DNA from: Sedimenticola sp.
Lineage (GTDB): Bacteria; Pseudomonadota; Gammaproteobacteria; Chromatiales; Chromatiaceae
DNA length: 64,000 bases
Reading direction: 5' to 3'
Assembly: GCA_002869585.1 (NCBI GenBank)
Contig: PKUO01000033.1
Location: 53,162-117,161, forward strand
Shown here: positions 39,129-41,530 of the stretch, one piece after another
How the letters are laid out: each line of letters opens with the position of its first letter
Position numbering within the stretch: the first letter of the stretch is position 1
Translations under genes and position numbers: made by a program
Notes under the pieces: generated by a model
Told to the model about the DNA's origin: nothing
What the model saw: only the letters and a program-made list of their open reading frames with translations
Databases searched by the model: none

Positions 39129-40826
39129 ATGTTATTACTCAACAGATTGAACCTGTTCAGCCGGGTTGTGCTGTCCGTTAGTGTCCTGTCATTTGCCACG
39201 CTTGCCGCCCAGGCGAACGAAGAGGCAAAGCCCGCCGGTGCGGCGGTCGACAGCGATATGAATTTCCGCATTGTCACCGACACCAAGCCGAGTATTCGTG
39301 ATGACGGCGAGTCCACCGCCGATCACAGCAAATTCGAGGTATTGCAGGGGCCGTTCGAGGATGGCCCGTCTGTCACCAAGGCCTGTCTCAGCTGTCACAC
39401 CGAGGCCGGCCGCCACTTCATGAAATCCATCCACTGGACCTGGGAGTATGACCATCCCACTACGGGCCAGAAACTGGGTAAGAAGACCCTGATCAACACC
39501 TTCTGCACCAATGCCAAAGGCAATGAGGGGATGTGCGCCCAGTGTAACGCCGGTTATGGCTGGAAGGATGAGAGCTTCGATTTCACCAACCAGAGCAATA
39601 TCGATTGCCTGGTCTGCCATGACCGCTCCGGCGGCTACTACAAGACACCGAACTCGGCCGGCAACAAGGCCTGTTCTGTGATGTTCGAGGGCAAGCAGCC
39701 GATCCAGTGGGACAAGGTGGCCCAGAGTGTCGGTCTGCCGGGGCGTGAAAACTGCGGTGCCTGCCACTTTTACGGTGGTGGTGGCGATGGGGTGAAACAC
39801 GGCGATCTGGATTCATCCCTGAAACGCCCCGACCGCAAACTTGATGTCCATATGGATGCCGAAGGGCTCAATTTCGCCTGCACCACCTGTCATGTCACCC
39901 GCCAGCACCTCTGGGCGGGCAGCCGTTACAATGTCATGGCTCATGATACCGAGGGGTTGGGACTGCCGGGTGAGCGCCGCGACGTGGCGACCTGCGAATC
40001 CTGCCATAGCGAGGCGCCCCATCCGAAGACCGAACTGGTGGGGATCAAGCTCAATGGCCATGTCGACAAGATAGCCTGTCAGACCTGTCACATACCCACC
40101 ATCGCCCGGGGTGGCGTGGCAACCAAGACCGACTGGGACTGGCGCACCGCCGGCAAGACCAAGAACGGAGAGGGTTACAAGGAGAAGGAGTACACCCAGG
40201 CCAACGGCGAGCATCGCGCGACTTACAAGTCGATCAAGGGTAGTTTCAAATATGGTGAGAACCTGGTGCCCTATTACGACTGGTTCGATGGTCAGATGGT
40301 CTATACCACCATTGAAACCCAGTTTGATCCGGCCAGCGGTCCGGTGGAGATCAACGGCTTCAAGGGCGATGCTGATGATGGTGTCTCACGCATCTGGCCA
40401 TTCAAGCGCATGCATACCGTGCAACCCTATGACAAGGGCAACAACACCATGGTCTACATGCACCTCTGGGGTGAAGACGACGATGCCTACTGGGGTAACT
40501 ATGACTTTGGCCGGGCGATCAAGGCGGGCATGGAGAGGAACAGTATCCCCTACAGCGGTGAATACGATTTTGTCGAGACCTACTCCTTCTGGCCGATAAC
40601 GCACATGGTGGCACCCAAGGAAGACGCCATCTCCTGCGATGAATGTCACAGCAAGCAGGGACGGCTTGATGGACTGGACGGTTTCTACATGCCGGGAAGA
40701 GACAGTTTCAGCTGGCTCGATATTCTCGGCTACCTGGTACTGGGAGGCGCGCTGCTTGGCGTTCTGCTGCATGGCCTACTTCGCAAACTGTTCAGCAAAA
40801 AATATCCGCATGGAGAAGAGTCATGA
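39129..40826 (+). CDS. Membrane-anchored octaheme c-type cytochrome (OTR-like)
   Basis: 565 aa. Signal peptide 1-29 and a C-terminal membrane helix (about 532-553). Seven CxxCH heme motifs, at Cys86, 160, 209, 251, 289, 317 and 503, plus one CAQCN at 136-140 in second place. Eight sites with an odd second site match octaheme tetrathionate reductase (OTR), whose active-site heme is known for a lysine ligand; Lys146 (GWKDESF), just after CAQCN, is a candidate. OTR-type enzymes reduce tetrathionate, nitrite or hydroxylamine in vitro; the physiological substrate is open. The membrane anchor and the cytochrome b gene overlapping by 4 bp imply electron exchange with the quinone pool. Confidence 0.88.
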   Translation: MLLLNRLNLFSRVVLSVSVLSFATLAAQANEEAKPAGAAVDSDMNFRIVTDTKPSIRDDGESTADHSKFEVLQGPFEDGPSVTKACLSCHTEAGRHFMKSIHWTWEYDHPTTGQKLGKKTLINTFCTNAKGNEGMCAQCNAGYGWKDESFDFTNQSNIDCLVCHDRSGGYYKTPNSAGNKACSVMFEGKQPIQWDKVAQSVGLPGRENCGACHFYGGGGDGVKHGDLDSSLKRPDRKLDVHMDAEGLNFACTTCHVTRQHLWAGSRYNVMAHDTEGLGLPGERRDVATCESCHSEAPHPKTELVGIKLNGHVDKIACQTCHIPTIARGGVATKTDWDWRTAGKTKNGEGYKEKEYTQANGEHRATYKSIKGSFKYGENLVPYYDWFDGQMVYTTIETQFDPASGPVEINGFKGDADDGVSRIWPFKRMHTVQPYDKGNNTMVYMHLWGEDDDAYWGNYDFGRAIKAGMERNSIPYSGEYDFVETYSFWPITHMVAPKEDAISCDECHSKQGRLDGLDGFYMPGRDSFSWLDILGYLVLGGALLGVLLHGLLRKLFSKKYPHGEES

Positions 40827-41530
40827 GCGCCAATGGCAACCTGAATCTCGAGAATGCCAATGTGAAAAAACGCGGCGGCAAACACTATGTGATGATCTAC
40901 ACCCGCTACGAGCGCTTTTGGCACTGGTCACAGGCGCTGCTGATCTTCACCCTGTTCTTTACCGGTCTGGGCCTGCACGGCACCCACACTATGCTGGACT
41001 TCCGTACCGCAGTCGTAATCCACACCTATGCGGCGCTGGTGTTGATCGTGCTGTGGGTGTTTACCACCTTCTGGAACTTCACCACCGGGCAGTGGCGTCA
41101 GTATCTCTTCAAGGAAGGGGTGTTCAAGGTGATCCGCTTCTATGCCTATGGCATCCTGGTGGGCGAACCCCATCCCTATCGCAAGGGTCTGCAGCGCAAG
41201 CAGAATGCCCTGCAATCACTGGCCTATATGGGTTTCATGATCTTTATCGGCCCCGCCCTGTGGGCATCCGGTATCGTCTATCTCACCTATGATCTGTGGA
41301 GCGGCTACAGCTGGGCGGGCACCGGCCTGATGCTGATCGCCTTCGTACACACGGCGGCGGCGTTCATCATGGGGGCGTTTGTGATCATTCATGTCTACAT
41401 GACCACTACCGGCAAGACCCCGACCCACTACATCAAGACCATGATCTCCGGTTACGACAATATTGAACTGACCGAGGCGGAAGAGGCCTACATCCGCGAG
41501 ACTCATGCGGTGGCCATGAAGGACGATTGA
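40823..41530 (+). CDS. Cytochrome b (b561/HydC-like), partner of the octaheme cytochrome
   Basis: 235 aa with about four membrane helices. Candidate heme-b ligands are the histidines in FWHWSQ, VVIHTYA, FVHTAA and VIIHVY, spaced as in the diheme b subunits of formate dehydrogenases and Ni-Fe hydrogenases. GKTPTHYIKTMISGY at the C-terminus is typical of that group. It overlaps the octaheme gene by 4 bp and probably oxidises or reduces quinone on its behalf. A hairpin follows the stop. Confidence 0.9.
   Translation: MSANGNLNLENANVKKRGGKHYVMIYTRYERFWHWSQALLIFTLFFTGLGLHGTHTMLDFRTAVVIHTYAALVLIVLWVFTTFWNFTTGQWRQYLFKEGVFKVIRFYAYGILVGEPHPYRKGLQRKQNALQSLAYMGFMIFIGPALWASGIVYLTYDLWSGYSWAGTGLMLIAFVHTAAAFIMGAFVIIHVYMTTTGKTPTHYIKTMISGYDNIELTEAEEAYIRETHAVAMKDD

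Follow-up and report, generated by a model that had tools for sequence, protein, structure and literature searches.

An OTR-family octaheme cytochrome c and its cytochrome b in Sedimenticola sp., with a heme-2 CxxCN motif that is probably a base error in the assembly

The octaheme tetrathionate reductase (OTR) of Shewanella oneidensis (SO4144, 1SP3) is a soluble protein whose electron donor, STC, is in turn fed by CymA (PMC4484225). According to a review OTR carries eight CXXCH motifs, yet its active-site heme is ligated by a lysine (PMC12285233), and this lysine is described as highly conserved (PMC11024163). BOGUAY_2386 of an orange member of the Beggiatoaceae is 582 aa long, has a helix predicted at either end and is followed by a cytochrome b gene; the protein purified from E. 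coli showed activities of 22 and 93 umol/min/mg with tetrathionate (two preparations) and 1.3 with nitrite (PMC6449678). Reduction of tetrathionate and nitrite is thus the activity on record for the assayed OTR relatives (PMC6449678, PMC4484225). A distant relative of OTR, MmcA of Methanosarcina (TIGR04314), is a heptaheme protein described as having neither the heme-2 motif nor the lysine (PMC11024163).

A further OTR-family protein and its cytochrome b are encoded in the window, which is the whole 64,000-nucleotide stretch of Sedimenticola sp. DNA analysed here. It was compared with a sample of 277 OTR-like proteins, 247 of them distinct including that of the window, drawn from the matches listed and from 100 stretches; the sample is skewed to Proteobacteria close to the window and contains three divergent members (L030, L139 and L140). 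The parts of the gene pair are:

39129..40826, + strand: OTR-family octaheme cytochrome c, 565 aa (TIGR04315, PF11783, 1SP3, hydropathy)
39534..39548, + strand: heme-2 attachment site CAQCN, residues 136-140, with codon 140 AAC at 39546-39548
39564..39566, + strand: K146, candidate ligand of the first-pass annotation (Lys in 172 of 247 sequences)
39795..39797, + strand: K223 in GGGGDGVKHG, probable proximal ligand of heme 2 (aligns with K153 of 1SP3)
40716..40784, limits approximate, + strand: C-terminal transmembrane helix with HxxxR (H548, R552), from hydropathy and predicted structure
40823..41530, + strand: diheme b561-type cytochrome b, PF01292, 235 aa (open reading frame, Pfam match, four invariant His)

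Direct reading of the 565-residue frame confirms the seven CxxCH sites (first Cys at 86, 160, 209, 251, 289, 317 and 503) and the single CAQCN (136-140) of the first-pass annotation. Its C-terminal membrane helix is borne out by hydropathy, with a mean of 2.03 for the top 19-residue stretch within the last 60 residues, and so is the 4-bp overlap between the cytochrome b frame, which starts at 40823, and the stop of the OTR gene. The N-terminus is a hydrophobic segment and likely a signal peptide. The cytochrome b matches PF01292 with 90.2 bits (cut-off 30.1) and the PhsC thiosulfate reductase cytochrome b model NF011582 with 114.6 bits, which is under the cut-off of 204; its four His (H34, H67, H176 and H190) are present in each of 162 distinct sequences, that of the window being counted.

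On its sequence the octaheme protein is firmly placed in the OTR family, as the first-pass annotation had proposed. The TIGR04315 model (tetrathionate reductase family octaheme c-type cytochrome) matches over its whole profile and scores 613.6 bits, the cut-off being 375, and since E = 2.1e-184 the pattern lies far beyond chance; PF11783 matches with 226.3 bits. In a sequence search 1SP3 is the sole strong relative among solved structures (E = 6.7e-105, next E = 0.67). It is also the only good fold match: an AlphaFold model built from 26 sequences, without hemes and of modest confidence (pLDDT 59.6, pTM 0.62), finds 1SP3 first in Foldseek (E=1e-34, TM 0.68 by target and 0.54 by query) and the next structure at E=2. 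The sequence contains no CxxCK, PF02335 (NrfA/ONR-type nitrite reductases) is absent from its Pfam matches up to E=0.001, and no HAO chain occurs among its sequence matches to solved structures up to E=1 or among the 18 fold matches of the modest-confidence model up to E=10. The MmcA model TIGR04314 scores 23 bits, where the cut-off is 250. With S. oneidensis OTR the protein shares the fold, the eight heme-attachment Cys pairs and the GGGGDxVKHG motif which holds residues 150 and 153, whereas it differs from that soluble enzyme in its C-terminal anchor and cytochrome b and in having CAQCN in place of CTSCH at heme 2. A quick tree without bootstrap but with SH-aLRT supports was calculated for 156 rows, 1SP3 having been added and L030, L073, L077, L088, L160 and 87 near-copies at >=86% identity having been omitted from the 247. 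The window protein falls in a 4-row clade with L035, L042 (a clam symbiont by record title) and L216 (SH-aLRT 100), nested in a 75-row clade (100). By identity L203 and L205 are nearest (~89%), and among the matches listed the closest titled records are L034 (Candidatus Thiodiazotropha) and L035, both at 81%.

The first-pass annotation had set the protein apart from the soluble Shewanella enzyme by its C-terminal anchor and cytochrome b; the wider sample does not sustain the view that these are peculiar to it. Helix and cytochrome b were tallied over loci with near-copies retained. A helix test (hydropathy 1.6 within the last 60 residues), applied to the 270 proteins whose end lies inside the locus, was passed by 246, all of which have HxxxR within the helix. 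Most of the 24 that failed are barely under the threshold and possess the same helix; the divergent L030, L139 and L140 are without it, L118 is apparently frame-shifted there and L088 ends early. Where 600 nt or more of downstream sequence is available (175 loci), a cytochrome b follows in 172, the exceptions being the three divergent loci, and at least 150 of the 210 genomes of the window's GTDB family contain an OTR match above the cut-off. BOGUAY_2386 is a published example of an anchored OTR, is of similar length and comes, like the window protein, from a gammaproteobacterial sulfur oxidiser; its locus differs in having extra thiosulfate-reductase genes downstream (PMC6449678). The pairing of OTR anchor and cytochrome b is therefore already known, and the two genes of the window encode a respiratory enzyme that is ordinary for sulfur bacteria. 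The pair, common in the loci examined, offers in its near-invariant K223 and its anchor HxxxR two features suited to a structural test. The HxxxR (40770-40784 in the window, H548-R552) places a His within the membrane that may contact the cytochrome b or sit at a quinone site.

In S. oneidensis OTR the heme 2 ligand is said, in a 2004 paper by Mowat, to be Lys153, with Asp150 nearby. A direct count shows that residues 150 and 153 of 1SP3, which are taken here to be this Asp150 and the ligand Lys153, are the D and K of GGGGDAVKHG; in the alignment their counterparts in the window protein are D220 and K223. The K223 column is Lys in 246 of the 247 sequences, the exception being the divergent L030. 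Going by this alignment and the residue number given for the ligand, K223 is probably the equivalent of Lys153 and hence the proximal ligand of heme 2. The literature searched did not mention Lys153 of tetrathionate reductase. The first-pass annotation had pointed instead to the close-by Lys146 as ligand; this column is Lys in only 172 of 247 sequences, and the presence or absence of the residue (labels from the alignment column) changes at least 22 times on the 156-row tree, on which grounds K146 was rejected as the catalytic lysine. Among the 247 sequences the K172 column has K in 232, R in 14 and V in 1, and the K426 column has K in 243; both residues were also considered, and K223 is preferred over them because Asp150 and Lys153 of 1SP3 both fall on its motif. 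The idea of a ligand swap, in which either His or Lys is lost but never both, was dropped once K146 had proved not to be the ligand. In a 24-row, mostly alphaproteobacterial clade (L079-L110 and L267) position 146 is Thr, Asp, Glu or Gln, and K223 is present in 24 of 24.

The other first-pass claim concerning heme 2 was that the missing motif His fits OTR. Position 140 is however His in 246 of the 247 distinct OTR sequences and Asn solely in the window, therefore the missing His is no OTR feature; the aligned site of 1SP3 reads CTSCH, and the eight CXXCH motifs described for OTR (PMC12285233) likewise speak against the claim. Codon 140 is AAC in the window versus CAT (131) or CAC (115) in the other 246. 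Over 77 near-invariant columns the window protein deviates at this one (H140N) with the remaining 76 intact; 208 of the 247 sequences show no deviation over these columns and 23 show one. The literature searched described no CXXCN heme site. That the motif His is retained in 246 of 247 sequences although it is not the iron ligand in OTR supports its retention for heme attachment, and the Asn, if real, would be a natural test of this role.

The CxxCN is probably a base error in the assembly, a C to A change in the His codon, and not new chemistry. The actual protein would then probably carry CAQCH at heme 2, which makes eight attachment sites of the ordinary kind. Elsewhere in the window genome (G000) rpoB contains an in-frame TAA at a position that is Glu in 12 of 12 reference genomes, and rplA contains one where 10 of 12 references have Glu and the other two Thr and Pro. 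A truncated rpoB is incompatible with the life of a cell, so the assembly must hold base errors. A coding-potential scan for stops within coding stretches covered 312,936 bases of the window genome and 280,000 bases of four relatives and returned 23 candidates in the former versus 5 in the latter. Inspected by eye, most of the candidates looked like antisense frames or gene ends, four in the window genome appeared to interrupt genes (rpoB, a permease, a HAMP-domain receptor and an ABC ATPase), and none of the five in the relatives resembled an interrupted gene. Together with rplA, the stops lie at:

L346:4923 (G000:C39): rpoB
L346:1822 (G000:C39): rplA
L326:4174-4176, - strand: permease
L329:5756: HAMP-domain receptor
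L362:4919: ABC ATPase

On read-through the permease and HAMP models cross the stop. In the ABC ATPase the stop lies beyond the end of the ABC_tran model and is crossed by a weaker AAA_21 match, and in rplA the ribosomal L1 model begins just past it. An ABC-domain search for interrupted copies found no stop among the matches listed, a result that is uninformative. The permease and receptor stops are on the window's own contig (C76). Each of the five stops would result from a G to T change in a GAA or GAG codon, and G to T is the complement of C to A; the original Glu of the permease, receptor and ATPase stops is read purely from context.

The same type of change is seen in a second OTR of the genome (L001:1393-2994), which is 51% identical to that of the window and has its own cytochrome b. 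It too deviates once over the 77 near-invariant columns, at a unique H260N where 245 of 247 sequences have His and one has a gap. Its codon is AAT and that of the window's H140N is AAC, and both need C to A from CAC or CAT. As H140N and H260N share the G:C-to-T:A change with the five stops, they are counted toward the error reading. Private changes number 12 in the window OTR gene (3 of them G>T or C>A) and 13 in L001 (3), compared with 1-10 in ten relatives of the former and 0-17 in eight relatives of the latter; this comparison is suggestive only, since close pairs among the relatives lower their counts. Against the error reading, the rpoB operon shows no missense excess, with 15 private changes (columns where a single genome deviates) in G000 versus 9 to 164 in 12 relatives, therefore errors are not dense throughout. 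Of the one-step changes there, 4 of 13 in G000 and 60 of 268 in the relatives are G>T or C>A. Synteny with G555-G558 covered 2,363 of the 64,000 window bases and 417 bases of L004, too little for an error count. The heme-2 CxxCN is a probable false lead, now removed. The base errors of the assembly bear on other findings from the window genome as well.

That the Asn is real, whether in an eight-heme CxxCN enzyme or in an MmcA-like seven-heme protein, is rather unlikely when both forms are taken together. The eight-heme form, in itself unlikely, would hold that heme 2 is still attached, the His being free to change because Lys ligates the iron and Ccm accepting CxxCN. K223 and the other near-invariant positions are indeed intact (76 of 77 columns without deviation), but a His found in 246 of 247 OTR sequences is hardly free to change, and the title of a 2005 paper by Allen is said to state that the His of CxxCH is essential for heme attachment by E. 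coli Ccm. Heme 2 of OTR is Lys-ligated despite its CXXCH, and in S. oneidensis CcmF with CcmI can apparently serve CXXCK without NrfEFG (PMC12285233). Against this, the window genome has one CcmF-sized open frame with PF01578 (666 aa, the others being 299 and 276 aa), so that a second, NrfE-like lyase is not evident, and its assembly contains base errors. Were it true, a natural CxxCN site would exist in which the remote K223 replaces the motif His under plain Ccm, separating the role in attachment from iron ligation. The seven-heme form, judged quite unlikely, would see in the Asn a recent loss that leaves heme 2 unattached, so that the protein is a heptaheme carrier or a dying copy with the second OTR (L001) as backup. 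It can draw on that second OTR with its own cytochrome b, on the unique His-to-Asn change in each of the genome's two OTRs and on the precedent of its relative MmcA, which has seven hemes and lacks both the second motif and the Lys (PMC11024163); however, K223 is kept where MmcA lost motif and Lys both, and neither the window OTR nor its cytochrome b shows any further near-invariant deviation.

The reading that is likely to be correct is a standard membrane-bound OTR complex with a Lys-ligated heme 2, its CAQCN being the base error. In such a complex the diheme cytochrome b would take electrons from quinol and hand them to the anchored octaheme subunit, whose seven bis-His c-hemes would carry them to heme 2, the site on the periplasmic side at which tetrathionate (two electrons), and in vitro also nitrite, would be reduced; the proximal side of heme 2 would be ligated by K223 and not by K146. 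For the window enzyme we infer the link to quinone, what the anchor does, the physiological substrate and the direction. The two-gene, quinone-linked complex for sulfur or nitrogen compounds suggested in the first pass is upheld in its pairing with cytochrome b (172 of 175 loci), while its quinone link is presumed and its sulfur or nitrogen oxyanion chemistry is drawn by analogy with assayed relatives. That the enzyme works instead as a thiosulfate or hydroxylamine oxidase is quite unlikely, for although many sulfur oxidisers by title (purple sulfur bacteria, clam and tubeworm symbionts) are among the matches listed and cytochrome chains are reversible in principle, the assayed relatives reduce tetrathionate and nitrite (PMC6449678, PMC4484225).

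Further multiheme cytochromes accompany OTR genes at some of the loci compared. The cluster at L098:2525-8282 comprises a five-CxxCH cytochrome, OTR, cytochrome b, an eight-CxxCH cytochrome and a four-CxxCH cytochrome which appears NapC-like by eye; the OTR locus L099 has an eight-CxxCH frame resembling that of L098, and L115 and L118 have shorter six-CxxCH frames. The OTR of L015 possesses an N-terminal extension with extra heme sites, giving 11 CxxCH in a 644-aa frame. The window genome itself also encodes a 421-aa eight-CxxCH cytochrome (L366:1231-2496, - strand, G000:C17) with weak matches to PF02335, the NrfA family, of 29.1 and 19.9 bits.
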